A stretch of 32,775 bases of DNA from a virus. The position numbers and the translations under genes are program-made. The stretch lies in the IMG/VR virus record IMGVR_UViG_3300042731_002272, positions 1-32,775 of that record. One strand, given 5' to 3'. The notes under the pieces were generated by a model, which saw nothing but the letters and a program-made list of their open reading frames with translations, had not been told where the DNA came from and made no database searches. Numbering within the stretch: the stretch's first letter is position 1; each line of letters starts with the position of its first letter. Positions 8,459 to 32,775 of this stretch are shown here, piece by piece.

Positions 8459-9727
8459 CTATGCGTAGCCCAGCCTGGCCTCTGCCAGGTAGTTGGTTCC
8501 GTCGTAGAAGAGCGCCACGAGGGCGATCTCGTTGGCGCTCATGGATCCAAAGTCCGGGGGCGATCCGCCGCCCCACTTCACCGCCGCCGGCCACGTCACC
8601 GTGCGCCCGCCTGTGGCGTCCTGCATAAGCTCCAGCATCATGTTGCCCCACCCGTTGGGCGCGACGAACGTGATGGTGGCGTTCGCGTTCAGGGTGCCCT
8701 TCTGCTTGTTGCCCTGCGTCCAGTTGATGGTTGGCGTCGCCCCGAAACCACCGTGGTCCACCCCGGAACCGAAGTCCGCAGCCTTGGCCGACCGGATGTC
8801 CTGCGAGCCCATCTGAAGGGGGCCCGTCATGCTCCTCGTGCCCGCCAAGTCGAGGTAGCCGGGGTGATCGGCCACGTCCGTCAGCCCAGCCAGATCCCCG
8901 TGGTCCATGGCATCAGGCTGACCGCTCGCGTGGGAAGCGGCATGGAGTTGCGCGTGGTGGTCGTCAGAGCCGACCCCACTCAGTTGCGAGTGGGCGCCGA
9001 TAGTCCCGGTGTGCTCTGCGGCCCCGTGGGCCGTGGGCGTCCTCGGGTCCGAGGAGTCATCGAGGGTTGCGTCGCTGACCTTCGTATTCAGTTGGGCCAG
9101 CGTCGCCGCGTCGTGGTCCGCACTCCCGAGACCGTGGACCTGAGCATGGTGGTCGTCGGCCCCCACCCCGGATAGCTGCGAGTGCGCGCCTATGGTCCCC
9201 GTGTGCTCCGCCGCACCATGGGCTGTCGGGGTCCTCGGGTCCGAGGAGTCGTCGAGGGTGGCGTCGCTGACCTTGGCGTTCAACTGCGCCAGCGTGGCTG
9301 CGTCGTGGTCCGCGCTACCGAGACCGTGTTGTTGGGCGTGATGCTGGTCAGAGGTGACGCCGCCGAGGTCCCCGTGGTTGATGGTGCCGAGGCTGATCTG
9401 GAGGTCTTCGTCCCCTCCCGGGTTGACCTCGGTGAGTTGGATGGGGGTCTGGGCCGTGAGCTTCGCGAGGAGGTAGTCGGCCACGGTGTCGTCGCCGCTG
9501 ACCTTCACCTTCTCATCGCCACCGCCCCCGCCAGCCGTGATGTCTACCCAGGTGATGGGGCTATGGTTGGTCAGCCGCCAGAACGTCCGGTTGTCCTGCT
9601 GAAGAGCATCCTTGCCGACATCGGCAGCAGTGAAGCCGGTGGCCGCCAGTCGCGCCGTCGCGTCCGCGTAGGTCCATGTGTGGTTGACGTGGTTGTCGTC
9701 GCCGGTGATGTTCTTATGCAGGCCCAT
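8459..9727 (-). CDS. Tail fibre protein with tandem histidine-rich repeats
   Basis: This 422-residue protein has a fibre-like plan. Residues about 1-65 form the head; a polyglycine stretch at 66-70 follows. Residues 134-197 and 198-261 are two nearly identical 64-residue repeats, each with T-A-H-G-A-A-E-H-T-G-T-I-G-A-H-S and ending in D-D-H-H-A-Q, typical of histidine-rich trimeric fibres. S-M-T-G-P-L-Q-M-G-S-Q-D-I near 295 is a common fibre segment. The last 90 residues (M-Q-D-A-T-G-G-R-T-V-T-W-P-A, then L-F-Y-D-G-T-N-Y) match a widespread phage tail C-terminal domain that probably contacts the host. ATG 9727 has GGAGAGG upstream. Confidence 0.85.
   Translation of the reverse strand: MGLHKNITGDDNHVNHTWTYADATARLAATGFTAADVGKDALQQDNRTFWRLTNHSPITWVDITAGGGGGDEKVKVSGDDTVADYLLAKLTAQTPIQLTEVNPGGDEDLQISLGTINHGDLGGVTSDQHHAQQHGLGSADHDAATLAQLNAKVSDATLDDSSDPRTPTAHGAAEHTGTIGAHSQLSGVGADDHHAQVHGLGSADHDAATLAQLNTKVSDATLDDSSDPRTPTAHGAAEHTGTIGAHSQLSGVGSDDHHAQLHAASHASGQPDAMDHGDLAGLTDVADHPGYLDLAGTRSMTGPLQMGSQDIRSAKAADFGSGVDHGGFGATPTINWTQGNKQKGTLNANATITFVAPNGWGNMMLELMQDATGGRTVTWPAAVKWGGGSPPDFGSMSANEIALVALFYDGTNYLAEARLGYA
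8945..9136 (-). repeat. Second copy of the 192-bp in-frame fibre repeat
   Basis: This copy encodes residues 198-261 of the fibre protein. It is directly adjacent to the first copy and differs by only a few residues (for example N-T-K for N-A-K, and G-S-D-D for G-A-D-D), with silent changes in the DNA. Confidence 0.9.
9137..9328 (-). repeat. First copy of the 192-bp in-frame fibre repeat
   Basis: This copy encodes residues 134-197 of the fibre protein. A shorter related piece (D-Q-H-H-A-Q-Q) directly precedes it at residues 128-133, which suggests growth by unequal duplication. Confidence 0.9.
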
Positions 9728-15530: not shown

Positions 15531-16091
15531 CTAGTAGCTCGGTGTCTGGGTCATGCCGCGCCCGATGAGGTCCCCGAGGGTGAACATCCTTCCCTCGCCC
15601 ACCTCGAACGGCGACGGCAGTGCATAGACCCGATCCACGAACTGCCGGAGAGTCATCTCCTCTTCGGCCATCTCCTCTGCGATGGTGTTGTAGAGGGACG
15701 GCCATTTCTCCACCATGGTCAGGATAGCGCCGGCCTCTTCAAGAGGGCGCCACTTGGATGGCATGAACCGCCACCGCCCGACCTCCCGTGTCTCCCTCAT
15801 GGCGCGGCCAATTGGTGCTGTCGGCAGCATCTCCTTGAGGTCAACCCCCGTCCGACTGAGCTTGTCCGCGAAGGCAACCCCGTAGGCAGACGCGGCGTGC
15901 TCCTTGAGCCACCGCCTCCAATCCGCCTCCCGGAGAGCCTCGTGCCCCACGACAACGAGGGGGAGGACTCCGTGGGCATCCCTGCCGGGGTAGTTCTCGT
16001 TGGTGAGCTTCATGAGCTTGACGAGGAGCCCGTTGCTGTCAGGTGGCGCCGGCCTGAGGGCGCCCTGAAGCTGCTCTGAGAGCTTGCTCAT
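15531..16091 (-). CDS. Hypothetical tail-region protein, 186 residues
   Basis: No family is recognised. It starts with M-S-K-L-S-E-Q-L-Q-G-A-L, strikingly like the shared N-terminal peptide of the cassette at 22964-31407, but without the E-A cleavage residues. The middle is helical and basic, with M-R-E-T-R-E-V-G-R-W-R-F-M-P-S-K-W-R. The last half has helices (I-L-T-M-V-E-K-W-P-S-L-Y-N-T-I-A-E-E-M) and F-T-L-G-D-L-I-G-R-G-M. Its position just before the tube gene could suit a tail assembly chaperone or a small tail component; the helical, non-repetitive sequence fits a chaperone better. The ATG overlaps the upstream stop (ATGA). Confidence 0.7.
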   Translation of the reverse strand: MSKLSEQLQGALRPAPPDSNGLLVKLMKLTNENYPGRDAHGVLPLVVVGHEALREADWRRWLKEHAASAYGVAFADKLSRTGVDLKEMLPTAPIGRAMRETREVGRWRFMPSKWRPLEEAGAILTMVEKWPSLYNTIAEEMAEEEMTLRQFVDRVYALPSPFEVGEGRMFTLGDLIGRGMTQTPSY

Positions 16092-16968: not shown

Positions 16969-17439
16969 CTACTCGCCTTGGATGCCCTTCACGAAGCGAA
17001 GCCCCAAGACGAGAGCCCCGCGTTTCGACTTGGCCTCTGCTCCGCTGACCCCTTTCAGATCTGCAATCTTGGCCTTGATCTTGGCGATCTTGTCGCTCTT
17101 CTTGAGCTTCTCCCAGGCCGCCTTGGCCACGCCCAGGAGCCGCAGAAGGCGCCCAGGCTTCTTGACTGCGCCCTGGATCCACAGACCCCCCTCGTCGGCC
17201 TCCCCGAAGAGGTCATACTCGATGGCCTCCAGAATGGCCGCAGAGAGCATCTCAGGGTCGGCCCCCGTCCTCTCGGCGATGGAGTCAGCGGCGAACTGAA
17301 CGTCCTCCTGAAGGCCCCAACAGGGGACCCCGGTGACCTCCTCACAGATGTCCTGCTCCAGGGAGGTTTCGTCGTCCTCCCGAGGCTCACCCTTGGCCTC
17401 TTGGAGGATGCGCCTCAGTTCTGCCGCGTTACCGCCCAT
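16969..17439 (-). CDS. Helical protein after the sheath gene, possible N-terminal protease site
   Basis: No family is recognised in these 156 residues. The N-terminus reads A-A-E-L-R-R-I-L-Q-E-A-K-G-E, with L-Q-E followed by A at 12-15, which fits a T4 prohead-protease site and resembles the cassette proteins. The rest is mostly helical: C-W-G-L-Q-E-D-V-Q-F-A-A-D near 40, M-L-S-A-A-I-L-E-A-I-E near 65, and a basic C-terminal region (A-W-E-K-L-K-K-S-D-K-I-A-K-I-K-A). ATG 17439 has a GGGGGTAGG stretch upstream. It lies directly after the sheath gene. It could be a tail chaperone or a minor internal protein. Confidence 0.65.
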   Translation of the reverse strand: MGGNAAELRRILQEAKGEPREDDETSLEQDICEEVTGVPCWGLQEDVQFAADSIAERTGADPEMLSAAILEAIEYDLFGEADEGGLWIQGAVKKPGRLLRLLGVAKAAWEKLKKSDKIAKIKAKIADLKGVSGAEAKSKRGALVLGLRFVKGIQGE

Positions 17440-21231: not shown

Positions 21232-21753
21232 CTACGCCTTCATCGACCGGACGTACTCACGCGCGATGCCCTGGAGCCCCACGAGCTTCGCGGCAGCGGT
21301 CCATTTCGAGATGACCTCGGCAGAGGCCCTCTCGGGATCCGGGACGTTGGGGATGAGTCCGCGCCGGGCGCAGTCGGCCGCCGCCATGGACACGGCCTCC
21401 AGGGCAGCGTCCTCACTGACCTTCTCCACCTTGGCCACGTCGGTCGCCGTGTCGGCCAGGAAGCCCATGAGCATCTCGGCCGGCGAGGGGTGGTTGGTGA
21501 CGCCGTGGTCACCACCCCTGTCGGGGTCGCCACCCGGGGAGTAGTCCGGTGCCCTCGTGCCGCCGGTCCCCGTGTAGCTGCGCTCGGGAGTCTGCTTGCC
21601 CGGAGCACCACCGTCGAGCGGCATCGCGCCACGCCCCACGTTGGTCATGCCCATGGCCTCGTCCAGGGCCTCCTCTCGGAGACCGTCCAACTCCCCTTCC
21701 TGCACGGTCCTGAGCGCCTTCGTCAGCACCGCGTTCACCTTCGCCATGTCCAT
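21232..21753 (-). CDS. Hypothetical protein, 173 residues, before the terminator-like gene
   Basis: No family is recognised. The N-terminal 60 residues are helical (V-L-T-K-A-L-R-T-V-Q-E-G-E-L-D, then E-A-L-D-E-A-M). A glycine- and proline-rich, disordered-looking section follows (Y-S-P-G-G-D-P-D-R-G-G-D-H-G). The C-terminal 80 residues are again helical, with M-L-M-G-F-L-A-D-T-A-T-D-V and K-L-V-G-L-Q-G-I-A-R-E-Y-V. A helical protein of about this size upstream of the tail genes could be a small terminase or a chaperone, but the similarity is too weak to assign. ATG 21753 or the ATG two codons later could be the start; the first has a GGGGG stretch upstream. Confidence 0.65.
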   Translation of the reverse strand: MDMAKVNAVLTKALRTVQEGELDGLREEALDEAMGMTNVGRGAMPLDGGAPGKQTPERSYTGTGGTRAPDYSPGGDPDRGGDHGVTNHPSPAEMLMGFLADTATDVAKVEKVSEDAALEAVSMAAADCARRGLIPNVPDPERASAEVISKWTAAAKLVGLQGIAREYVRSMKA

Positions 21754-22963: not shown

Positions 22964-23293
22964 CTAGTCTATCCGGCCGCCGGTGTAGATGCCCTGCATC
23001 GAGGGCCTCAGGAAGAGGGAGATGGCCTTTGGATCCCTGCTGACAGGGGAGTCAGGGGGCTTGACCCACAGGTCGTAGCGCTCGGTGTCCACGTCTATCT
23101 CCAGCGTGGAGCCCGAGGCTTCATCCACCACTCGGACGGTGTGCGTCGCCGGGTCTATCTCGGTGATGCGGCCCTCGGCGACCCTCTCTCCTGGCTTGCT
23201 CCCGCGCGTGCGCGTGCGAACCGTGACGATGTAGCCAGGGGCGAGGAGCACCTTCTGACGCGCCGCTTCCATCAGTTGGGTCGAGAGTCTCAT
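22964..23293 (-). CDS. Cassette protein with capsid-targeting-like N-terminus (109 residues)
   Basis: The protein starts M-R-L-S-T-Q-L-M-E-A-A-R, the shared cassette peptide with an L-M-E before A at residues 7-10. The rest looks like an SH3-like or OB-like beta barrel (G-Y-I-V-T-V-R-T-R-T, E-G-R-I-T-E-I-D, T-H-T-V-R-V-V-D-E-A), a fold often found in DNA- or RNA-binding and structural proteins. The C-terminal 25 residues end in a charged segment. By analogy with T4 internal proteins, the start peptide would bind the scaffold and be cut by the prohead protease. The ATG overlaps the stop of the gene upstream (ATGA), so the two are made together. Confidence 0.75.
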   Translation of the reverse strand: MRLSTQLMEAARQKVLLAPGYIVTVRTRTRGSKPGERVAEGRITEIDPATHTVRVVDEASGSTLEIDVDTERYDLWVKPPDSPVSRDPKAISLFLRPSMQGIYTGGRID

Positions 23294-23808
23294 GATTTGA
23301 TGTTCGCCCCTCTGGATACGGCCTCTGGCGTCGGGGTGCCGTCCTCCTTCGCGAGCTTCTCATCGAGGATCATGTAGAGGCGCTCCTCGGGTGAAAACTC
23401 GGCCCACACCTTCTTGGGGTTGGCACCTTTACGGTGGCCGCGAGGGGTCGCCTCGAAAGCGTCGATGCAGTACCGCCTCACCTTGTCGTGGAAGACGCTC
23501 CCAAGGTGCCCAGCCGCCTTCTTCAGTTTCCGGTAGCGTTCGATGAGGTTCATGGCCGCGTCAACGGCCTCGTCCCACTTCGACAGCATGGCGTCAGGCC
23601 ACGCGCCTTCGCCCTCCTCGTTGTCCGGGTACTTCGCCCCGCGCTTCACCTTCACCGTGAAGCCGTGCTTCTTGAAGACCTCGGCCATCGCCCGAAGCTC
23701 GACATCGGTAATGGCGCCGATGAACTTCTTGATGTCGTACCACTCGCCGGAGAGGTAGACGGTGCCGGGCTTCTTCGTCGCCTCCTGCAACTGCTGTGAG
23801 AGCCTCAT
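23290..23808 (-). CDS. Cassette protein with capsid-targeting-like N-terminus (172 residues)
   Basis: The start M-R-L-S-Q-Q-L-Q-E-A-T-K matches the cassette peptide, with L-Q-E before A at 7-10. The body is mostly helical: D-I-K-K-F-I-G-A-I-T-D-V-E-L-R-A near 25-40, W-D-E-A-V-D-A-A-M-N-L-I-E-R-Y near 78-92, and a C-terminal helix (E-R-L-Y-M-I-L-D-E-K-L-A-K). It is basic overall and could bind DNA. No family is recognised. The ATG overlaps the stop of the gene upstream (ATGA), and its own stop overlaps the next start, so it is in the middle of the coupled run. Confidence 0.75.
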   Translation of the reverse strand: MRLSQQLQEATKKPGTVYLSGEWYDIKKFIGAITDVELRAMAEVFKKHGFTVKVKRGAKYPDNEEGEGAWPDAMLSKWDEAVDAAMNLIERYRKLKKAAGHLGSVFHDKVRRYCIDAFEATPRGHRKGANPKKVWAEFSPEERLYMILDEKLAKEDGTPTPEAVSRGANIKS

Positions 23809-24221
23809 AGCGCCCCTGCCTCCTTGGCAACAGACCGGAGCATCCCCTCGATGCCGTCCACCTCTCGGGCCAGGTCAGGGCGCCCCACGGCCAAGCTCGC
23901 CGACAGGGCCCCCACGGCCTGCTGGGCCTCCTTGAAGCGTCGCGTCAACTGCGCGCCCGACGAGGCCCGCTTCTTGTGGCGCCGGATGTCCTTCATCCGC
24001 GCCTCACCGATGGGCTTCGCGCCCCTCTGCTTGAGCGCACCCTCGGCGTGGTCGAAGCTGGCTCGGCGCCCAAGCCGCACCTCGTCGCCCTCGATGGACA
24101 GGACCCATTCCCGTCCCTTCTTGTAGAGTTTGGCGAGCCCCTTTGAGGTCTTCATTTCGTAGCCCTTGGGAGTCTTCTTCCACTCCGTCAAGGCCATCAG
24201 AAGCTCGGCCGCCAGGCTCAT
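23805..24221 (-). CDS. Cassette protein with variant N-terminus (138 residues)
   Basis: The start M-S-L-A-A-E-L-L-M-A-L-T-E-W-K-K resembles the cassette peptide in its first half, and L-T-E at 11-13 could be cut, but the next residue is W rather than A or G. The body has a basic strand pair (G-Y-E-M-K-T-S-K-G-L-A-K-L, W-V-L-S-I-E-G-D-E-V-R-L-G) and then long basic helices (D-I-R-R-H-K-K-R-A-S-S). It has a high positive charge and could bind DNA. No family is recognised. The ATG overlaps the upstream stop (ATGA). It is the clearest variant of the peptide, so its membership in the set is less sure. Confidence 0.7.
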   Translation of the reverse strand: MSLAAELLMALTEWKKTPKGYEMKTSKGLAKLYKKGREWVLSIEGDEVRLGRRASFDHAEGALKQRGAKPIGEARMKDIRRHKKRASSGAQLTRRFKEAQQAVGALSASLAVGRPDLAREVDGIEGMLRSVAKEAGAL

Positions 24222-24568
24222 GCGTACATCTCCTTGTTCATCTTCAGCCACTCGGCCGACTGCTCGTTGGCGAGCTTCTTCAAGGTGGCACGCGCCTGGC
24301 TGAAGACTGCCTTCCTCACGGTGTTCGCCACATTCCGCAGATCCCTGCTGTACCTCGTCCCCCTGATGACTTGGAGACCCGGGTCCTTCGTGACATCCCC
24401 GACACTGCCACCCACCCTGAACACCCCTTGGTCTCGAATCGGGATGTCCATGGTGAAGCTAATCCCAGAGCCGTCCGTGTAGATGTCTGCCACCACCTCG
24501 ACAGACCCGATCTTCTTCCGGACCTCGCGTGAACGCGCCGCCTCTAGCAACTGCCTCGAAAGCCTCAT
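24218..24568 (-). CDS. Cassette protein with capsid-targeting-like N-terminus (116 residues)
   Basis: The start M-R-L-S-R-Q-L-L-E-A-A-R is the cassette peptide, with L-L-E before A at 7-10. The body has a beta part (E-V-V-A-D-I-Y-T-D-G-S-G-I-S-F-T-M-D-I) and a helical basic end (A-N-T-V-R-K-A-V-F-S-Q-A-R-A-T-L-K-K). No family is recognised. ATG 24568 was chosen because it follows a GGGAGGTGGGC site and overlaps the upstream stop (ATGA); a GTG two codons earlier is possible. If cut after residue 9, the mature protein would start at A10. Confidence 0.75.
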   Translation of the reverse strand: MRLSRQLLEAARSREVRKKIGSVEVVADIYTDGSGISFTMDIPIRDQGVFRVGGSVGDVTKDPGLQVIRGTRYSRDLRNVANTVRKAVFSQARATLKKLANEQSAEWLKMNKEMYA

Positions 24569-25020
24569 GCCCACCTCCCCATCACGTCGAAGGCGATGGT
24601 GTAGGTGAGGGTCTCGGCCCCCGCGTTCACCTTGACCTCGTTGAACTCGGTGGTGTCTGACCAGTCGATGTTGGTGACCCGCGCCCCCCGGCGGAAGTCG
24701 TCGTCGGCCATGCGGACGACTGCCTTGCGGATGGCCGGCTTGACCGCCTGGAGCACCTCCCTGCTGACCTTGTTCCGGTCGCCCATGGGGAAGAGGGCCT
24801 GGCGGTCCGAGAGCTTCTTGAGGAATCCCTGGAGCACACGCCGCTGCTTGCCAAAGAGGCTCGCCACCGTCGCGCCCTTGATCTCGAACTTGACCTCGAC
24901 GAGGGCAATGAACTCGTCGTCACTGTCATCGGACGGGGCGCCGTCCGGAGCCATCTCGGCGGAGATCACCTTGATGCCGCCGGAGGCCGCCTCTGCCAGT
25001 TGGGTCGCCAGGCTACTCAT
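24565..25020 (-). CDS. Cassette protein with capsid-targeting-like N-terminus (151 residues)
   Basis: The start M-S-S-L-A-T-Q-L-A-E-A-A-S fits the cassette pattern with one extra residue, and L-A-E precedes A at 8-11. The body has a beta hairpin (F-I-A-L-V-E-V-K-F-E-I-K-G), a basic helical part (V-L-Q-G-F-L-K-K-L-S-D-R-Q, K-P-A-I-R-K-A-V-V) and a C-terminal strand-rich end (V-N-A-G-A-E-T-L-T-Y-T-I-A-F-D). No family is recognised. The ATG at 25020 has a GGAGG site 7-8 bases upstream and overlaps the upstream stop by 8 bases. It lies beside the possible gp14-like gene, so the cassette is interleaved with structural genes. Confidence 0.75.
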   Translation of the reverse strand: MSSLATQLAEAASGGIKVISAEMAPDGAPSDDSDDEFIALVEVKFEIKGATVASLFGKQRRVLQGFLKKLSDRQALFPMGDRNKVSREVLQAVKPAIRKAVVRMADDDFRRGARVTNIDWSDTTEFNEVKVNAGAETLTYTIAFDVMGRWA

Positions 25021-25582
25021 CGCCATCCTCCAGTGTCTTCCGGATCGGCAGGAATTTGGTGCGCCGCGAAAGCTCCAGCTTGTAGCCAACGAACTGCTCT
25101 GCCGTCCACACGTTGCCGTCTCGGGTCGCCTTCACCACGTCCCACTGGCTGCGGTCCTCTTCGCTGCCGAAGGGTGGCTGCTCCCAGAAGGACACCACGT
25201 CCCCTTCCTTCGGGTAGGGTGCGGAGTGGTCCTCGAACTCCTTCCGACTGATCTTGGCGATGGCCTCGGAGTTGCGCTGGATGCCCACCTCGGTCGCCTC
25301 CGGGGTGATGTTCTCGGACTGCGGGAACTCGATTTCAGCCATCATCTCCCAGGGGCCATCGAACTCCCAATCGCCATCGACGTTGGGCTCTTTGTAAAGG
25401 GGATCCCTGTGCTTCGCCCTGCGGAGCCTGTAGTAGATGATGGGGGTCCCGGCCAGCCGCGCCCCTTCCGAAGCAATCGAGTCATGAACAGCCAACTCGT
25501 CGCCGCACCCCTCGCAGTCGCCGCCGGGGAAGATGCGCCGCTTCGGACCACAGCCGTCTGAGCAGAACCCGCCCACGTCCAC
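25013..25582 (-). CDS. Possible gp14-like neck protein with N-terminal zinc knuckles
   Basis: This 189-residue protein has C-S-D-G-C near residue 7 and C-E-G-C-G near 23, a likely zinc site. The main part resembles T4-type neck proteins: P-I-I-Y-Y-R-L-R-R at about 47-55, D-P-L-Y-K-E-P near 60-66, a helical stretch around 100, and Y-P-K-E-G-D-V-V-S-F near 122-131, a position where gp14-type proteins have an R-P-R-E-G-D type motif. The similarity is short, so the assignment is tentative. The protein lacks the cassette peptide, unlike most of its neighbours. The start is GTG 25582, right after the upstream TAG, with AGGAAG before it. If correct, it sits in the ring that closes the head at the tail. 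Confidence 0.5.
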   Translation of the reverse strand: MDVGGFCSDGCGPKRRIFPGGDCEGCGDELAVHDSIASEGARLAGTPIIYYRLRRAKHRDPLYKEPNVDGDWEFDGPWEMMAEIEFPQSENITPEATEVGIQRNSEAIAKISRKEFEDHSAPYPKEGDVVSFWEQPPFGSEEDRSQWDVVKATRDGNVWTAEQFVGYKLELSRRTKFLPIRKTLEDGDE

Positions 25583-26149
25583 CTACTTCCTGGGCATCTT
25601 CTTGAAGGCCCCCGACACCATCTTGTGTTGGCGGTCCGTCTCGACCTTCATGGTCCCGAGGTTGCCCACGATGGTTCGCGCGGCCTGGTAGACGGTCCTC
25701 GGGTCGTCCTTGCCCTTGCCGATCTGTCCGAGGCCCTTTCGGATCTCCTTGAGCCACGCATCCATGTTCTCGACGAAGACCACGAGACCGACCATGCCGT
25801 GCGGCAAGTCGAAGATGTCGAGGCCCGGGATGACACCCTCGTCGAGGCCCTCCTTCATGGCTGCCTTGAGCTTGGCTGCCTTCTCCTTCGAGCCGACGAG
25901 GGCCAGCCCGTGCCACTCGCTGCGGGGCCCAGCCCAGAAGCTCCGGATGACGAGGCCGTGCGGCTGAAGGAGCTTGGGCACCCGATGGGCCATCTTCTTC
26001 GTGACGACCACCTGCTTGCCGTCTGCGAGGAGCCCGAGCACCTCCTGTTCGCTCATCTTGCGAGCATCGACCTTCCCGGCCTTGCGCTCCGCCGCCGAGA
26101 GGCCCGCCTCGTCGAGGGTTCCGTGGAGTTCCTCCGAAAGCCGCGTCAT
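25583..26149 (-). CDS. Cassette protein with capsid-targeting-like N-terminus (188 residues)
   Basis: The start M-T-R-L-S-E-E-L-H-G-T-L-D-E-A-G fits the longer form of the cassette peptide; L-D-E precedes A at 12-15. The body has L-L-A-D-G-K-Q-V-V-V-T-K-K-M near 40-53, then P-G-L-D-I-F-D-L-P-H-G-M near 105-116, and V-F-V-E-N-M-D-A-W-L near 122-131. It is helical and basic at the end. No family is recognised. The ATG overlaps the stop of the upstream gene (ATGA). It and its neighbour at 26146 are the first cassette genes after the TMEM65-like gene. Confidence 0.75.
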   Translation of the reverse strand: MTRLSEELHGTLDEAGLSAAERKAGKVDARKMSEQEVLGLLADGKQVVVTKKMAHRVPKLLQPHGLVIRSFWAGPRSEWHGLALVGSKEKAAKLKAAMKEGLDEGVIPGLDIFDLPHGMVGLVVFVENMDAWLKEIRKGLGQIGKGKDDPRTVYQAARTIVGNLGTMKVETDRQHKMVSGAFKKMPRK

Positions 26150-26481
26150 GCCGCACCTCTCTTCTTCATCATGTTGTCCACGTACCACTGCGAGTAGAAC
26201 GGGGGCGAGAGCTTCAGCCCCGTCGTGTCGAGCACATGGTCGTGGCTGTAGCGGCCGTACTTGCCACCGATGTTGTCCTTCACCCAGAACTTGATGTCGT
26301 CCTTGGTGGAGGCCCTGGCGATCACCCGAGAGGAGGACTTGTGGGGATCGCCGTAGGTAACGATGTAGCCCCCGGCGCTGTCCTTCGAGATGACGACCAT
26401 GTGAGGCGCCATCTTCTTCTTGACGTTGGAGAGGGCGCCCTTGCCCTTTGCCGCCTCTGTCAGTTGCTCCGAGAGTCTCAT
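26146..26481 (-). CDS. Cassette protein with capsid-targeting-like N-terminus (111 residues)
   Basis: The start M-R-L-S-E-Q-L-T-E-A-A-K is the cassette peptide, with L-T-E before A at 7-10. The mature part has a strand-rich region (M-V-V-I-S-K-D-S-A-G-G-Y-I-V-T-Y-G) and a helical one (R-A-S-T-K-D-D-I-K-F-W-V-K-D). It is basic, with many Tyr and His residues (G-R-Y-S-H-D-H-V), and could contact nucleic acid. No family is recognised. The ATG overlaps the stop of the TMEM65-like gene (ATGA), so the two proteins are made together. Confidence 0.75.
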   Translation of the reverse strand: MRLSEQLTEAAKGKGALSNVKKKMAPHMVVISKDSAGGYIVTYGDPHKSSSRVIARASTKDDIKFWVKDNIGGKYGRYSHDHVLDTTGLKLSPPFYSQWYVDNMMKKRGAA

Positions 26482-28184
26482 GCCACACCTCCGGTCAGGG
26501 CCGCCACGCCCAGCTTGATGGCGATGGGGATCAGGCACCCGACAATGACGCCGATGGTCGCCTGGCTCGTCGTCCCCTCACCCTTGACGCCGAGAACCTT
26601 CCACAGGGCGTAGGCCACCGCGCCCCCGAGGAGCGCCCCCACACCGTCCGAGAACGTGTTGCCGAGGCCCGCCGCCACCTGGGCGCTGTAGCCCATGGCC
26701 TGGACGGCCTCTTCCACCTGATCCATGCCGATGAGCATCCCCGCGTTGTCGATGAGGCCGAAGACCGCCGATGCGCTCATGCCCACGCCGTAGCTCTTCA
26801 TGGCGGCGAGGGCCTTGCGGTGCTTCGACGCCACCTCCTTGTCGGCACCGGAGACGATGTTGGCGACCTTCCGCTTGGTCTGCTCCAGGGAGTCCTCGAT
26901 GCTCCGCTGGATCATCTTCACAAGGGTCTTGTCGTGCTCGGCGAACGCCTGGGCGATCTCCTGTTTCGAGGCGCCGGAGCCAGGGGCCGGGATCATCCCC
27001 TTCTTGATTGCCTGACGCATCGCGTCTTGAACGGCGTCCTCGATGGTGTCCTCTGAGAGCCCCCCTGCGGCCTTCTGGATGCGCTGGGCATACTGGTTGA
27101 CCTGGCGCTTCACGAGGTTCTGGGCGGTCCCTGGGAGCTTCTCAAGGAGCTTCTGGTACACGCGCCCGAGCGCACGCATGACCTTCTCACTCATGACGGA
27201 GAGGCGCCGCTTGACGCCCCTGAAGAGGCCGGCGAGCTTTTCGCCGATGGCCTCGCCCAGAGCCTCGGCGTCGTCGCCCTCGGAGTAGCCGTCGATGAGG
27301 CTCTCGACCACCTGAAGCTCGGCGAGGATGACCTCTTCGGTGAGGGGCTCGCCCTCGGGCTCCACGCCCTCATAGGTGAACAGGTAGGAGTAGGACGGGT
27401 GGTTCTCCAGATCGTCGATGCTCACCTCGACTTCCAGTTCGTCGTACTTGGGGAGCTTGTCGTCGAGGAGAATCAGGACGACCGTCTTCTGCTTCTTGAC
27501 CCACCTCTCGACGTTCCCCTCCGTCCCCTTGGGGAGGGAGACCGTCTCGCCGACGCGGACATCCTTGATCCAGTGAGGGACCTCCACGACCTTGGCACGC
27601 ACGGCCTTGGTGAGAACCCCCGTGTTGCCAATGTGGACCTTCCGCTTCCTCTCCAAGTCGTCCGGGTGGACCCACACCGGCATGTCTTTGAACTTGCCGC
27701 TGGCCACCTTGCCGAAGATGAAACCGCCACCGGTCCACTTGATGAGGTTGATGCTCGTGCCCTTCGGAAGCGTCACCTCCCCGATGGCATCGCCCTTCCT
27801 CATGTCGGTGACTTCAATCGCCTTGTTCGTCTTGAGCTTCCTCCCCAGCTTGAAGTCCCTGAGGGACTCCCGAAGGGTCTCCGGCGCGATGGCGTTGACA
27901 GGGACCCAGCCGTCCGAGTGGGACAGCACCATGGCGAGGGCCGCCTTGGCCTTGGCCTCTTCGACGGCCTCTGCCGTCGTCTTCTTCGGCGGGGTCTTGG
28001 GCTTGGGCGCCGGCTTCTCATCGTCGAGGTTCAGGTCGGGCTTCATCTTCGTCGGCTTGATGCGGCGAAGCTGGCGCACGACGCGGTAGCGCTCGCCGCC
28101 CTTGGTGACGGTATGCGCGGCCCTGGAGCCCGTGAACCGGCCGTCCTTGCCGTGGTAGGTCGTCCCCTCTTCCACCCGCGCCAT
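26478..28184 (-). CDS. Multidomain protein with TMEM65-like C-terminal membrane domain
   Basis: This 568-residue protein has four visible parts. Residues about 1-45 form a head with H-G-K-D-G-R-F-T-G-S. Residues 48-85 are low-complexity. Residues about 130-178 and 210-260 are two related beta modules, each with L-P-K-G-T followed by N and [K/R]-W, and later D-D-L-E. Residues about 280-450 are helical. The C-terminal 116 residues resemble TMEM65 (PF10507): F-G-L-I-D-N-A-G-M near 475-483, V-A-A-G-L-G-N-T-F-S-D-G-V-G near 503-516, and hydrophobic segments at about 514-527 and 543-560. TMEM65 is a mitochondrial membrane protein; a phage role is unknown. ATG 28184 has a GGAGG site. Packaging with the cassette proteins is possible but unproven. 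Confidence 0.75.
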   Translation of the reverse strand: MARVEEGTTYHGKDGRFTGSRAAHTVTKGGERYRVVRQLRRIKPTKMKPDLNLDDEKPAPKPKTPPKKTTAEAVEEAKAKAALAMVLSHSDGWVPVNAIAPETLRESLRDFKLGRKLKTNKAIEVTDMRKGDAIGEVTLPKGTSINLIKWTGGGFIFGKVASGKFKDMPVWVHPDDLERKRKVHIGNTGVLTKAVRAKVVEVPHWIKDVRVGETVSLPKGTEGNVERWVKKQKTVVLILLDDKLPKYDELEVEVSIDDLENHPSYSYLFTYEGVEPEGEPLTEEVILAELQVVESLIDGYSEGDDAEALGEAIGEKLAGLFRGVKRRLSVMSEKVMRALGRVYQKLLEKLPGTAQNLVKRQVNQYAQRIQKAAGGLSEDTIEDAVQDAMRQAIKKGMIPAPGSGASKQEIAQAFAEHDKTLVKMIQRSIEDSLEQTKRKVANIVSGADKEVASKHRKALAAMKSYGVGMSASAVFGLIDNAGMLIGMDQVEEAVQAMGYSAQVAAGLGNTFSDGVGALLGGAVAYALWKVLGVKGEGTTSQATIGVIVGCLIPIAIKLGVAALTGGVA

Positions 28185-28199
28185 CGCCCCTACCTCCAG

Positions 28200-28649
28200 C
28201 TACGCCTTCTTCTTCTGAAGACCCGCCAGTTGGCCGATGCGGTAGAAGACGGCGTTCAACTCAGCCGTGAGGTCTGCCGCCGCTCGCCGTGTCCGGTTGT
28301 CGAACCCGAGGATGCCCGTCCCAGCGTAGTGACCAAGCACCTTCAGGGACCGGATCGCGGCATCAATCTCTTCCGCCGCATTCTCGTTGAACCAATCGAC
28401 AAGATCGTCGATGCCGTCAGGGTCCTTTCGCGACCGCTCAAGATCCCCCTGCTTCCGGCCAGCATTCACCTGTTTCTGGAAAGCCTTGAAGACGGCATCG
28501 CCACGGACCGCCTCGACATCTCCGCCAATGCCCTCCCCGATGGCCCCCTCACGGTTCGATGCCTCGGCGAGCAGGTGCTTGCTGCCAGGCACAGCCTCTT
28601 CTGAGACCAGCCGCCCCAACTCCTCGTCCAGTAGCCTCTCGCGATTCAT
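28200..28649 (-). CDS. Cassette-related protein with late protease-like sites (149 residues)
   Basis: This protein does not start with the standard peptide, but its first 30 residues contain L-L-D-E-E-L, V-S-E-E-A and L-L-A-E-A-S, so several positions look like prohead-protease sites; the last (L-A-E before A at about 27-30) is the best. The body is helical, with A-F-Q-K-Q-V-N-A-G-R-K near 57, W-F-N-E-N-A-A-E-E-I-D-A-A-I near 86 and a basic C-terminus. No family is recognised. The ATG overlaps the stop of the upstream gene (ATGA). It may be a diverged cassette member or a scaffold-like component cut inside the prohead. Confidence 0.65.
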   Translation of the reverse strand: MNRERLLDEELGRLVSEEAVPGSKHLLAEASNREGAIGEGIGGDVEAVRGDAVFKAFQKQVNAGRKQGDLERSRKDPDGIDDLVDWFNENAAEEIDAAIRSLKVLGHYAGTGILGFDNRTRRAAADLTAELNAVFYRIGQLAGLQKKKA

Positions 28650-29035
28650 CGGTTGTCCCTCTTCCTCTCCCCGTAGTTCTGGATGGCGTGATTGAGGAAG
28701 GACTCGACGTGCCGGATGACCTCCCTGTCGCTCGTCTGATGCTTGGCATACATGAAGGACTTGCCGTCCTTCCTCATGAAGATGTCCCACGCCCCCTCAG
28801 GGTGCTTCGTCTCGGCAGCCTTCAGGACGATGGTGAACTTGCCGATGTTCGCCGCTGGCCCATCCGCACTGATGCTCCACTGCGGCGTGTGCCGCTTCAG
28901 GCCGCCTGGCACGCTGTCGATGATGGACTTGGCCATCAGCCAGGCATCCGTGAGAGCCCCCTTGCGGAGCTTGAGCTTGACCTTCCCCTTGGCCTCCACG
29001 AGCGTCGCTTTCAACTGCTCCGATAGCCGTGCCAT
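28646..29035 (-). CDS. Cassette protein with capsid-targeting-like N-terminus (129 residues)
   Basis: The start M-A-R-L-S-E-Q-L-K-A-T-L-V-E-A-K-G fits the longer cassette form; L-V-E precedes A at 12-15. The mature part is a mixed domain: basic helices (L-K-L-R-K-G-A-L-T-D-A-W-L-M-A-K), a strand pair (K-F-T-I-V-L-K-A-A, W-D-I-F-M-R-K-D-G-K) and a C-terminal helix (V-I-R-H-V-E-S-F-L-N-H-A-I). This may be a small alpha/beta domain; no family is recognised. ATG 29035 has a GGGAGGACGGG site, so the arginine-rich upstream extension is rejected. It overlaps the next gene's start by 4 bases. Confidence 0.75.
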   Translation of the reverse strand: MARLSEQLKATLVEAKGKVKLKLRKGALTDAWLMAKSIIDSVPGGLKRHTPQWSISADGPAANIGKFTIVLKAAETKHPEGAWDIFMRKDGKSFMYAKHQTSDREVIRHVESFLNHAIQNYGERKRDNR

Positions 29036-29049
29036 CCCGTCCTCCCGTC

Positions 29050-29478
29050 CTACACCACATCCGGCTCTATCTGCCGGAACAGTTGACCGAATCGCTTGTA
29101 CTTCCCGGGCGCTTCCTTCTCCATGGCGTGCTTCATGGAAGCCCGCGCCCCCTTCTGCGTCTGCCTCACGTTCTTGAGCTTCGCGCCGATCTTGTACGGG
29201 GGCTTCAGGTAGCCGTAGCGCGTCAGGCTCCAGCGGCAGATATTCCACGCCGCCCGCGTGTCGTACTTCTTCCTACGGCGCCTCCGGGCGTGCCCAGGCT
29301 GACCACCCCTGACGGCCAAGACGCAGTGCGCCAACTGCGCCGGCACCTTGTCCACCGCCGCCTTGCCCTTCAGCCCACCTGGCCTCGGCTTCTGCTTGGG
29401 CGGCTTCTTCCGCAAGCCGCCACGAGCGGCCTTCCGCTTCTTCTTCTCTATGAGGAGGCTGAGAGGGATCAGGTTCAT
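29050..29478 (-). CDS. Very basic protein, 142 residues, near neck genes
   Basis: Residues about 11-40 are lysine- and arginine-rich (E-K-K-K-R-K-A-A-R-G-G-L-R-K-K-P-P-K). The middle has L-A-H-C-V-L-A-V-R-G-G, then R-R-R-R-K-K-Y-D, and A-A-W-N-I-C-R-W-S-L near 77-86. The spaced cysteines and the W-N-I-C segment recall small phage proteins in which two short helices share a cysteine pair; no function is known for them. The strong positive charge suggests DNA contact inside the head. ATG 29478 has only a weak ribosome site. It lies between the gp13-like gene and the cassette. Confidence 0.65.
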   Translation of the reverse strand: MNLIPLSLLIEKKKRKAARGGLRKKPPKQKPRPGGLKGKAAVDKVPAQLAHCVLAVRGGQPGHARRRRRKKYDTRAAWNICRWSLTRYGYLKPPYKIGAKLKNVRQTQKGARASMKHAMEKEAPGKYKRFGQLFRQIEPDVV

Positions 29479-29482
29479 CAGG

Positions 29483-30268
29483 CTACCCTACGATGAACGG
29501 CACCGGGTCGGAAAGCCCGATCAGTTCCGTGTTCAGGTCAACGATCTCGGTGGCCGACTCGCTCAGGAGGGTGTCCCCATCCATGCTCTTGGAGCCGCCT
29601 GCCGAGGGCCATTCGGTGTACTTCGACCGGATTCTCCCCAGGGTCTCCTTCATGCGGGCCACGGCGTACCGGAGGATGATGTCCCGGTCCCTGAACCGCA
29701 GGTTCTCGAAATCGTTCTTCGGGGTGGTGGCCGGAGGCGTCGGGTCGTCCACCACGAGCTTGTTCGAGGCGTAGCGCGCCACGAGGGTCCCAGACTGATG
29801 CTGATGCGGGAAGACCGTGAGCAGGTTGGTGTCCTTGTGGAACTCCCAGGCCGGCTCGGCCCCAATGACGCGCCGCGCCGTCTCCGCGTGTTGGATGATC
29901 TGATGGTAGGTGCCGTAGAAGCTCCCGCCGGGGACCCCCGTGATGCTCTGGTACGCGACTGGAAGCTGATCCACGTCGATGAAGGCGTAGGGGTTGATGG
30001 CCGCGATCACGTCAAGCTGGACGCCCGGGAAGGACACCCAGACCACCTCGTCGGTGTCGTCGGGCATCAGGTAGTCCTGAATGCCCTGCGTCACCGTCAC
30101 GACGGCGTGCCGCTTGATGCCCTTCTTGGAGATCCACCACCGGATGGCATCGCAAAAGGCGTCCTCGACGTGCTCATCGGTCAGTTCGAGCACGACGACG
30201 CCACAGCCGAGTCTGCGCTTCAGCCAGCCGAGGGCCTCATCCTTGTTGGTGGGGTCCGAACACGACAT
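29483..30268 (-). CDS. gp13-like neck protein
   Basis: This 261-residue protein resembles T4-type neck proteins (gp13). The first 60 residues match the family: A-L-G-W-L-K-R-R-L-G near 12-21, V-V-V-L-E-L-T-D-E-H-V near 24-34 and D-A-F-C-D-A-I-R-W-W near 36-45. The middle is beta-rich (Q-G-I-Q-D-Y-L-M-P-D-D), followed by F-H-K-D-T-N-L-L-T-V-F-P near 144-155 and Y-A-S-N-K-L-V-V near 170-177. The C-terminal helices (R-D-I-I-L-R-Y-A-V-A-R-M-K-E-T-L) are typical. In T4, gp13 and gp14 form the neck ring under the head after packaging. ATG 30268 has an AGGAGG site. Comparison from memory only. Confidence 0.65.
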   Translation of the reverse strand: MSCSDPTNKDEALGWLKRRLGCGVVVLELTDEHVEDAFCDAIRWWISKKGIKRHAVVTVTQGIQDYLMPDDTDEVVWVSFPGVQLDVIAAINPYAFIDVDQLPVAYQSITGVPGGSFYGTYHQIIQHAETARRVIGAEPAWEFHKDTNLLTVFPHQHQSGTLVARYASNKLVVDDPTPPATTPKNDFENLRFRDRDIILRYAVARMKETLGRIRSKYTEWPSAGGSKSMDGDTLLSESATEIVDLNTELIGLSDPVPFIVG

Positions 30269-30308
30269 CTCCTGAGCCTCCTACGCCCATTGTAGGCCGC
30301 CTGAGGGT

Positions 30309-30800
30309 TCAGGACGATGCCTTCTTGCCACGCCGTCGCTTCGCCGCCCCTGCTCCCCTCTTCGCCGTCGCCTTGGCGAGCTTCGACGCCGGGGACTTCG
30401 TGGTGCTGCCCTCGCTCTTCTTCTTCTCCTCAGGGGGAGGGGGAGCCGGGGACTTCGCCGGAGACGACTTGGCCTTCGGCGCCTTGCCCTTGGCGGCCTT
30501 CTTCGGCGCCGGGGCAGACTCCGTGGTGGGCTCGTCGTCCCGAGCGGGGCTCTCCTGCTCCACGTTGACCTCAGGAGCCTCCTTCGGGGGTGCCTTGGGC
30601 TCCGGGGCCGGCTTCGGCTTCGGGGCCACAGGAGGCGCCGCAGGGGCCTCCTCGTCGGTGACCTCCACGAGCATCCCCAGGGGCACGAACTTGGCCCACA
30701 TCGGACCCACGAGCACCTCGTCGTCTCCGACGATGCGGCTGCCACCGCGCACGTCGAGCGCCAGATACCCCGGGCGAGCCTTCTTGAACTTCCTGGCCAT
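30309..30800 (-). CDS. Small domain plus disordered linker and basic C-terminal tail
   Basis: This 163-residue protein has a compact N-terminal part of about 55 residues (Y-L-A-L-D-V-R-G-G-S-R, then V-L-V-G-P-M-W-A-K-F-V-P). It is followed by about 80 residues rich in Pro, Ala, Lys and Glu and probably disordered, and it ends in a strongly basic tail with A-K-R-R-R-G-K-K-A. The plan matches the protein at 20039-20512. The tail may bind DNA or acidic protein surfaces; the N-terminal part may attach to the neck or head. ATG 30800 follows AAGGAGG by about 7 bases. No enzymatic motif is visible. Confidence 0.75.
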   Translation of the reverse strand: MARKFKKARPGYLALDVRGGSRIVGDDEVLVGPMWAKFVPLGMLVEVTDEEAPAAPPVAPKPKPAPEPKAPPKEAPEVNVEQESPARDDEPTTESAPAPKKAAKGKAPKAKSSPAKSPAPPPPEEKKKSEGSTTKSPASKLAKATAKRGAGAAKRRRGKKASS

Positions 30801-30813
30801 GAACGGCCTCCTT

Positions 30814-31407
30814 TCAGTCCCCGATGCCGAAGGAGTGGTAGTGGTAGGTGTAGGCCCCACTCCCACCATCCACGCTCCCTTGAGCACGGTACGACGAACC
30901 CGGCACACCACCGCCGCCGGGCCTCACCACCTTCTTGAACGCCTGGATGACGAGCTTGGCGATGGCGTCGCTGTCGGCCCTCACCGCCAGGTAGCTGTCA
31001 TCCGAGTAGGAGTTCTGGACGTGGAAGATGCCGATCTCGGCCAACCCGACAGACTCAGGGTCCACCCGGTATCCGCCCTTCGTCGGGAACATCCCCTCCG
31101 ACTTCATCGCCTTGACGAGGAGCGGGGTGACCGCCTTCTTGAAAGCGCCACTGGTCAGCCACTTGAGCTTCTTGCCGTCCTTCGAGATCCAGACCTCGAC
31201 GGTTGGCGTGAACTCGCCCCTCTCGGCGCCCTTCTTCTTGCCGTACTTGTGGGAGGCACTGATCCTCGCCGCCACGTCAGGGGTGTGCCTACGGCCTGCG
31301 GCCCCAGCGCTGAAGCCGATCATCTTGAACTCGACGAGCGACTCCGGCTCGGTGGTCGCCGGCTCAGGATGGCCAATCGCCTCTGCCAACTCCCTCGACA
31401 GACTCAT
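30814..31407 (-). CDS. Cassette protein with capsid-targeting-like N-terminus (197 residues)
   Basis: The start M-S-L-S-R-E-L-A-E-A-I-G fits the cassette peptide, with L-A-E before A at 7-10. It is the first gene after the capsid gene. The mature part has V-E-V-W-I-S-K-D-G-K-K-L near 71-82, a helix F-K-K-A-V-T-P-L-L-V-K-A-M near 90-102 and a glycine- and tyrosine-rich end (S-Y-R-A-Q-G-S-V-D-G-G-S-G-A-Y). No family is recognised. ATG 31407 follows GGGAGG by about 6 bases; the upstream extension lies in the hairpin region and is unlikely. The gap between this gene and the capsid gene is 157 bases with hairpins and no gene. Confidence 0.75.
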   Translation of the reverse strand: MSLSRELAEAIGHPEPATTEPESLVEFKMIGFSAGAAGRRHTPDVAARISASHKYGKKKGAERGEFTPTVEVWISKDGKKLKWLTSGAFKKAVTPLLVKAMKSEGMFPTKGGYRVDPESVGLAEIGIFHVQNSYSDDSYLAVRADSDAIAKLVIQAFKKVVRPGGGGVPGSSYRAQGSVDGGSGAYTYHYHSFGIGD

Positions 31408-31564: not shown

Positions 31565-32775
31565 CTAGAGGCCACCCGTGATGGTCACGCGGCCGAACCA
31601 CTCAGACCGCAGGAGCTTCGTCGCGTAGCGCGTCCTCAAGCCCTTGCGATAGCTCTGATCCTCGGGGTCGAGGAACGTCGGCGTCATCTGGAGCGGCACG
31701 TAGGGCGCGAAGACGAAGCCGGCGTCGAGGTACGACTGCCCCCGGAGACCGAGCATGATCTGGTTGCTCGCGAAGAAGGGGTCCTGATAGCCCCACCACT
31801 TGTTGGACAGCGGACCGAGCTTCAGGATGCCCTGATGGCTCGTCAGCGGCCCGTAGGAGGGGGGCACGACGGTCCCGTCGTAGGGCCCCACCACGCTGCC
31901 AGGCGCCGAGACCCACGGGGGCCTGTAGTCGCCGTGCGTCTGGAGCTGGACGAGCTTCGCCGAGACCTCGGGGGAGGTCACGTACCAGTTCGCGGGCGCG
32001 CGGAGCGTCTGCTTGTGGATCTGGAAGCTCACCGCGCTCATGCGCGTGAGGACCGACCGGATGTGGTCCACCTCGCTGACGCCAGCGGGGACCGTGAAGT
32101 CGAAGGTGCCGGTGATGCCGGCCGACGCGGCGAAGAGCTGACCGAGGATGTCCCGGTCCAACTCCAGGGCGATCTCCTGGCTGATGCCGGAGACCAACTC
32201 CGTCTCGGAGTCGATGCCGTGGAACGCCCTCAGGTCGTCCGCAGCCTCGCTCGACCACCTCGCCTTGAGCTTCCGGGTCGTGGCCTGGATGGGCTCGAAC
32301 GAGATGTCGATGTAGATGTCGGGGACCTGCCGGTTCGCCTCGGAGTCGTACCAGTAGGTGACCCGCACGATGCTGTTCGCCAGCGTGGCGCCGGAGAACT
32401 GGAAGGCGGTGATCTGACCGGTGGCGTAGTTGATGCTGCCAGCGGTGTAGTCACCGGTGAAGCCGCCCGTGCCGTCGTCCACGCACGTCTGCCGCACCGC
32501 GCCCGCCGCCGTGTACTCCTCGACGGTGACGCTGTAGCCCAGGTCGGAGTCCAGCGGACGGACCGGGGTGTACTGGCAGATGGCGGAACCGGCCGAGGTT
32601 GACCAGTCGCCAGCCGAGAGCGGGCCGGCCAACTGCTCGTACTCCACCTTCTCCGACGAGTACAGCTCGTCGAAGTTCTGGATGAGGTTCGAGCCGGCGA
32701 CGGTCTGCCCCTTGGACTTCCCGTGCTTGTACTCGAAAAAGAAGACCGCCCCGACCGGAGCCGTCATCGGCTGCA
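31565..32775 (-). CDS. 23: T4 gp23-type major capsid protein, 3' part (N-terminus outside window)
   Basis: The last 403 residues of a gp23-like major capsid protein are visible, running off the right edge. The codons at 32773-32765 read Q-P-M, giving Q-P-M-T-A-P-V-G, the gp23 signature; the frame stays open to the edge, so ATG 32767 is internal. A second signature lies about 165 residues on: R-K-L-K-A-R-W-S, D-D-L-R-A-F-H-G-I-D, then E-T-E-L-V and I-A-L-E-L-D-R. The segment at about 68-141, counted from that Met, has D-D-G-T-G, I-N-Y-A-T-G and V-T-Y-W-Y, the same module found in the sheath. The protein builds the icosahedral head and in T4 is trimmed by the prohead protease, which supports a protease-based reading of the cassette. 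Confidence 0.93.
   Translation of the reverse strand, partial: QPMTAPVGAVFFFEYKHGKSKGQTVAGSNLIQNFDELYSSEKVEYEQLAGPLSAGDWSTSAGSAICQYTPVRPLDSDLGYSVTVEEYTAAGAVRQTCVDDGTGGFTGDYTAGSINYATGQITAFQFSGATLANSIVRVTYWYDSEANRQVPDIYIDISFEPIQATTRKLKARWSSEAADDLRAFHGIDSETELVSGISQEIALELDRDILGQLFAASAGITGTFDFTVPAGVSEVDHIRSVLTRMSAVSFQIHKQTLRAPANWYVTSPEVSAKLVQLQTHGDYRPPWVSAPGSVVGPYDGTVVPPSYGPLTSHQGILKLGPLSNKWWGYQDPFFASNQIMLGLRGQSYLDAGFVFAPYVPLQMTPTFLDPEDQSYRKGLRTRYATKLLRSEWFGRVTITGGL

Follow-up and report, generated by a model that had tools for sequence, protein, structure and literature searches.

Why should eight proteins with otherwise unrelated sequences begin with nearly the same peptide? The question is raised by a 32.8-kb record from an uncultured virus related to phage T4, with 64% GC (IMG/VR record IMGVR_UViG_3300042731_002272, positions 1 to 32,775), referred to below as the window, in which a first-pass annotation had noticed a set of small proteins sharing an N-terminal peptide that ends in L-x-E-A. 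These peptides are probably capsid-targeting sequences that act like those of the internal proteins of phage T4, so that the proteins carrying them, or “cargoes”, would be packaged into the head, cleaved there and injected into the host. All genes concerned are located on the minus strand, and gene starts are inferred throughout, those of the 47 curated window genes included.

The eight genes begin with M-x-L-[S/A]-x-[Q/E]-L-x-E-A, or with that pattern plus one extra helical turn. With an arrow marking the predicted cutting site, the tags are MSLSRELAE↓A on a 197-amino acid (aa) protein (30814..31407; MALSRQLRE↓A in the ortholog of the relative L001), MARLSEQLKATLVEA, or MARLSEQLKATLVE↓A, on a 129-aa protein (28646..29035), MRLSEQLTE↓A on a 111-aa protein (26146..26481), MTRLSEELHGTLDEA, or MTRLSEELHGTLDE↓A, on a 188-aa protein (25583..26149), MSSLATQLAE↓A on a 151-aa protein (24565..25020; MSIAQQLQE↓A in the ortholog of the relative G009), MRLSRQLLE↓A on a 116-aa protein (24218..24568), MRLSQQLQE↓A on a 172-aa protein (23290..23808), and MRLSTQLME↓A on a 109-aa core protein (22964..23293). 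The positions first reported for these peptides were mostly stop-codon ends, whereas the tags actually lie at the high-coordinate ends. All eight starts are ATG, and a Shine-Dalgarno sequence is found at seven of them (the exception is 23293). Most neighbouring genes between 26481 and 22964 have a 4-nucleotide overlap, much as translationally coupled genes would. An all-frame scan for a start codon followed by [L/I]-x-E-A recovers the same peptides, and the bodies that follow them are mostly basic.

The strict motif M-x(1,3)-L-x3-L-(x3-L)-x-E-A occurs in 8 of the 47 window genes, whereas 5000 shuffles of residues 2-20 averaged 0.022 genes and never exceeded 2. It is absent from all 8338 internal positions in the window. 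Because the motif was picked after looking, all N-termini were also clustered without any motif, with one shuffle per genome. In the window, this comparison yielded 13 high-scoring pairs of non-homologous N-termini versus 0 after shuffling, and a single cluster of eight that comprises seven of the eight tagged proteins and the product of a further gene ending at 16091. The shuffles and the motif-free clustering rule out a chance origin of the shared N-termini, and the original observation is thereby borne out. Across seven genomes, tag position 4 is S or A in 41 of 42 cases and position 6 is Q or E in 33 of 42, and the search selected for neither. A genome-specific flavour of the tags is marginal (p 0.05). 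No known domain that would account for the peptide was found in the libraries searched, Pfam and PHROG among them, and a leader peptide of the kind found in ribosomally synthesized and post-translationally modified peptides was rejected by reasoning, the bodies being diverse and ~70-500 aa long.

Around this core are less regular members. A version at 23805..24221 that had been called partial is a true, 13-residue variant with Trp after the site (MSLAAELLMALTE↓W; 138 aa), and the L-x-E is kept in all four members of its family, each in a different phage (ALTE↓W, ALSE↓W, ALTE↓W and ALHE↓S). The diverged N-terminus of the 149-aa protein at 28200..28649 (LVSEEA, LLAEA) is a weak member, with LVMAEA at the same place in its L001 ortholog. 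Also weak is the 156-aa protein at 16969..17439, which starts with MGGNAAELRRILQE↓A and whose site is absent from most relatives. Two related N-termini had been missed. One belongs to a conserved 186-aa protein at 15531..16091, which begins with MSKLSEQLQGALRPA, a tag without a cutting site, and is the protein that joins the tag cluster without the motif; the other, ending at 21753, is of a second type described below. An ending in exactly L-x-E thus holds for the eight strict tags and for 24221, and fails for 16091.

The capsid gene next door is of the T4 type, as had been proposed. It encodes a gp23-type major capsid protein (31565..32775; PF07068, E 1.5e-47; phrog_138) whose N-terminal ~97 residues lie off the contig. 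In T4, a 10-residue tag suffices for packaging, and the gp21 protease cuts after L/I-x-E (PMC9026906). Twenty-six relatives of the window capsid protein were found in viral contigs, one of them, L001, at 95% identity; matches among phage records are all <60% identical, and the best full-length one is 34% identical. A gp21-type S77 protease, expected upstream of the capsid gene, is encoded directly there in 13 of the 14 relative records over the curated cut-off (PF03420), including one with the capsid protein 95% identical to that of the window. The window record itself yielded no such protease, and its contig breaks off within the capsid gene, a little short of the place where the protease is expected.

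The protease gene of the relatives is a 530-600-codon frame with the Peptidase_S77 match in its N-terminal part (PF03420, E 1.4e-15 in L005), and the remainder reads like a coiled-coil scaffold, which suggests a protease-scaffold fusion. Such a fused frame is seen in L001, L002, L005, L009, L012, L017-L019, L022, L102, G016 and G017. At the junction with the coiled coil, nearly all members have a start codon and a Shine-Dalgarno-like sequence; a nested start there would yield free scaffold, and the peptide specified by these codons is itself fairly conserved. An unguided scan with a degenerate nucleotide pattern encoding the tag found only 13 stretches in 2.9 million viral contigs, about half of them in this phage group. 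Six of the 13 were set aside as chance, since their records have no S77 match and the scan used showed no other tagged gene in them. Searches with the tag or with cargoes led to five larger records of the group, all of which have the protease.

In the proposed mechanism, the tag would form a short amphipathic helix with which each protein attaches to the scaffold core during prohead assembly. The gp21-type protease, as the N-terminal part of the fusion, would then cut after L-x-E, releasing the mature proteins, most of them basic, into the head interior; at least many of these may enter the host along with the ejected DNA. If cutting follows the gp21 rule, sites are expected to be constant at P3 and P1 and variable at P2. 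This pattern is found in expected substrates from three unrelated families. The capsid precursors of the relatives have L-x-E-D near residue 60 in 15 of 15 cases with seven different middle residues, the N-terminus of the protease itself reads L-[EQASTH]-E-[SAD] in all 18 readable sequences, and a basic head-cluster family keeps [LI]-x-E in 12 of 12 orthologs, after which comes a linker whose length differs greatly between them. The window member of this last family (29050..29478) is a conserved, very basic protein with an isoelectric point of 11.4 and the N-terminus MNLIPLSLLIE↓K.

The peptide recurs on unrelated proteins in the relatives, where motif genes were counted with a crude gene caller against a shuffled expectation. 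The counts were 13 versus 0.37 in G009 (192 kb), 6 versus 0.24 in G003 (148 kb), 6 versus 0.32 in G015 (186 kb), 3 versus 0.03 in G004 and 3 versus 0.11 in G017, with 0-1 in G006, G007, G008, G010, G011 and G012. The motif-free cluster of G009 has 22 members; with one spurious member left out, 20 of 21 end in [L/V]-x-E. By clustering alone, a tagged set is not visible in G015 or G016, and no tagged genes were found around the capsid gene of Microcystis phage Mel-JY01. The trait is real but patchy among relatives.

Should the tagged proteins be packaged and trimmed, they could still be mostly structural or core parts of the head, with roles in DNA condensation, head size or vertex assembly, rather than injected effectors. 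This alternative draws on the synteny and conservation of several tagged or L-x-E families (22964, 29050 and 23805), which is unlike host-specific effectors, and on the basic character of most bodies. However, the tagged sets differ strongly between relatives, and the group offers no relative of four window cargoes (29035, 26149, 24568 and 23808), both as for accessory effectors; the four would fit a fast-changing accessory set. A tagged SprT-like peptidase in G009 also argues for effectors. It is the clear exception among the small cargoes of the relatives (E 4.4e-8), which are otherwise nearly empty of Pfam matches. A mostly structural role is accordingly judged unlikely.

Several observations weigh against packaging and cleavage as set out above. 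The protease is present in G006, G008 and G012 with no tagged set by motif count. Any protease of the window's own would sit beyond the contig end. The cargo bodies reveal next to nothing about function. As for homology of the mature cargoes to the T4 internal protein families (IPI, IPII, IPIII and Alt), the nine proteins of the window set searched with Pfam had no match there and those searched with PHROG no significant one, with T4 proteins not directly compared. In the 22964 family (14 members), Leu7 and Ala10 are invariant, and 10 members keep the Glu of the first site. In another, L060, a second site, L-D-E-A, immediately precedes the body, which brings those with L-x-E before the body to 11, and the remaining three (L014, L015 and L085) lack the Glu. 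Finally, the 15531 family shares MxRLSEQL, yet only 1 of its 8 members has L-x-E, and the 16091 gene is located between the sheath and tube genes. Targeting and processing of the T4 tag rest on different residues (PMC9026906); therefore, by analogy, the 16091 family may be targeted and left uncut. Alternatively, the peptide may not be head-specific.

The last two families would suit a general docking helix for a virion or assembly partner that is no protease substrate, with L-x-E-A as mere helix, and the AlphaFold models do show a helix. It spans residues 3-12 in the 22964 protein, which has a small beta-barrel body in the model (predicted local distance difference test, pLDDT, 67), and residues 2-11 in the 15531 protein (pLDDT 73), with low confidence there in both cases. 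Fold searches gave no confident match, with weak small-barrel matches for 22964 and none for 16091. However, a docking helix does not explain the invariant P3 and P1 beside a free P2, nor the variable linkers that begin straight after the site in the 29050 family. The site also moves with its domain. The 26146 domain follows LTE↓A at the N-terminus of the window protein, whereas in G009 (G009_71350) it is internal, with LSE↓A ahead of it, which favours a cutting site over a targeting helix alone. The 24565 family has LAE↓A in the window and LQE↓A in G009. Docking without cleavage is thus improbable, and targeting followed by cleavage is retained. Most sequence predictions that follow from the first-pass annotation were borne out; 16091 and the few members without the Glu are the exceptions. 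An internal enrichment of L-x-E-[AG] in tagged proteins, as a polyprotein would have, was not convincing, its sole support being the G009_71350/26481 pair.

There is also a second kind of tag. In G003 and in G017/G018, a longer N-terminus, M-D-[IV]-x-x-V-N-x-V-L-x-x-A-I-x-x-x-Q-E-x-E-..., is common to unrelated proteins (9 in G003 and 7 in G017). It extends over 25-30 residues, often ends in [ILM]-x-E-A and also emerges in the motif-free clustering. In the window, it is carried by the 173-aa protein at 21232..21753, which begins with MDMAKVNAVLTKALRTVQEGELDGLREEALDEA and has its predicted site at MDMAKVNAVLTKALRTVQEGELDGLREEALDE↓A. One gene each in G009, G010, G011 and G015 has a long-tag start. 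In the 22964 family, the G003 member has MDVQRINAVLREAIVALQESEVSDIVENSARLEE↓AAERVNL where the window has MRLSTQLME↓ARQKVLL. Two kinds of tag are thus interchanged on one orthologous cargo, both ending in L-x-E-A before the body, and this swap is regarded as the most informative new point of the analysis. That the shared N-termini are merely copied gene starts (a strong ribosome-binding site plus the first codons) spread by recombination, with a peptide that has no role, is very hard to credit: strong ribosome-binding sites and overlapping starts do go with the tag, and the long tag of G003/G017 resembles a copied N-terminus of a core gene, but the free positions differ among the window tags, with L, [S/A], [Q/E], L, E and A all kept, and the preferences at positions 4 and 6 across seven genomes were not selected by the search.

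A broader proposal, on which the balance is about even, is that of a modular packaging code. At least two interchangeable N-terminal tags, the short MxLSxQLxE↓A and the long MDIxxVNxVLxxAI...xE↓A, the latter copied from a core head-cluster protein, would load changing sets of up to ~20 cargoes. The protease-scaffold fusion would serve as both receptor and processing enzyme, and the injected arsenal would be readable from the genome. As a separate observation, several proteins of G003 (L027-L034) and G017 (L098-L100) share a second short motif, G-x-[YF]-x-[VI]-P-[ST]-P, after the tag, in the predicted mature N-terminus.

How does this system compare with known ones? As with T4 IPI-III and Alt, which are cut by gp21 (PMC9026906), a short N-terminal peptide is common to unrelated small proteins, and the hydrophobic-x3-[L/I]-x-E↓A spacing, the S77 protease and the gp23-type capsid with an internal L-x-E site are also shared. 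Unlike T4, the peptide here is MxLSxQLxE↓A, with a 13-residue form and a second type of 25-30 residues, cargoes are several-fold more numerous per genome, the protease is fused to a scaffold, and the tested window cargoes lack Pfam and PHROG matches. When the loose pattern was applied as a control to 30 T4 genes, it picked out IPII, IPIII and gp2 but not IPI, in which a candidate site lies further in. In phiKZ and SPN3US (PMC9026906, PMC10052503), many head proteins are likewise cut after x-x-E by a gp21-related protease, and some are ejected; however, their site is [S/A]-x-E and most of their propeptides are long, in contrast to the uniform short tag with L-x-E found here. In phage P1, an N-terminal signal similarly sends the anti-restriction protein DarB into the head (PMC9024508), but the Dar proteins have no shared consensus, whereas one is plain here. 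The system is thus a much enlarged variant of T4 capsid targeting and not a new principle, and a literature search, with most subscription journals outside it, found no description of such a tagged set in this lineage.

LR756508, from an uncultured huge phage (484 kb), has a related gp23-type capsid and S77 protease, and its own set of N-termini, M-[KRQ]-L-[KQ]-x-x-L-x-E-[ASN] (10 versus 2.4 expected). Unlike the window, it has a peptide of another flavour, low GC and weaker statistics, and its record is without annotation. Its S77 gene (L114 from 3683) has an apparent intein-like insertion right after GELDHP, and the halves match PF03420 separately. An ADP-ribosyltransferase identity for one of its tagged proteins was not supported.

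The proteins that a phage injects act ahead of all expression from its own genes, and virion proteomics normally identifies them singly. A recognisable tag would make the likely injected set readable from sequence, uncultured phages included. Some 9 window proteins and ~20 in one relative, nearly all without known fold or function, are thus candidates for early host takeover or counter-defence, and the tag swap on orthologs, together with the fused protease-scaffold, makes the targeting mechanism testable in vitro.

Among individual cargoes, a 479-residue G003 protein (L032 8882-10318, minus strand) contains HELGH, begins with a short tag and terminates in the tag-like peptide LSDQLIGALREA, which recalls T4 Alt, processed at both ends (PMC9026906). 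Some look-alikes were set aside. G009_151027 (MGIKEAMTEA...) looks tagged, its N-terminus presumably being an ordinary internal helix of S-adenosylmethionine (AdoMet) decarboxylase, and a G009 UvrD helicase with MSIGNILSEA may be a chance match. G007_18380 as an Acb1-like 2H phosphoesterase was rejected, having no significant similarity to T4 57B and only weak family matches.

Other observations concern the relatives and neighbouring genes. G009 (L048, L049; 192 kb) has 37 predicted transfer RNA genes in one stretch, and a portal-like gene in L005 (3-2060) appears to bear an intein (CLHGSTEIQLLDG ... VCN↓S). One contig of this phage lineage, L102 (JAJDDX010000500.1, 183 kb), has been binned with a Phycisphaerae metagenome-assembled genome. 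It is the only relative in the genome collection, and this weak hint was not considered enough for a host claim. Within the block of tagged genes, window positions 26478-28184 (minus strand) encode a 568-aa protein with hydrophobic C-terminal segments and a weak TMEM65 match, possibly a membrane protein. At 8459-9727 (minus strand) is a protein with near-identical internal repeats (THGAAEHTGTIGAHSQLSGVG[A/S]DDHHAQ), which is probably fibre-like.

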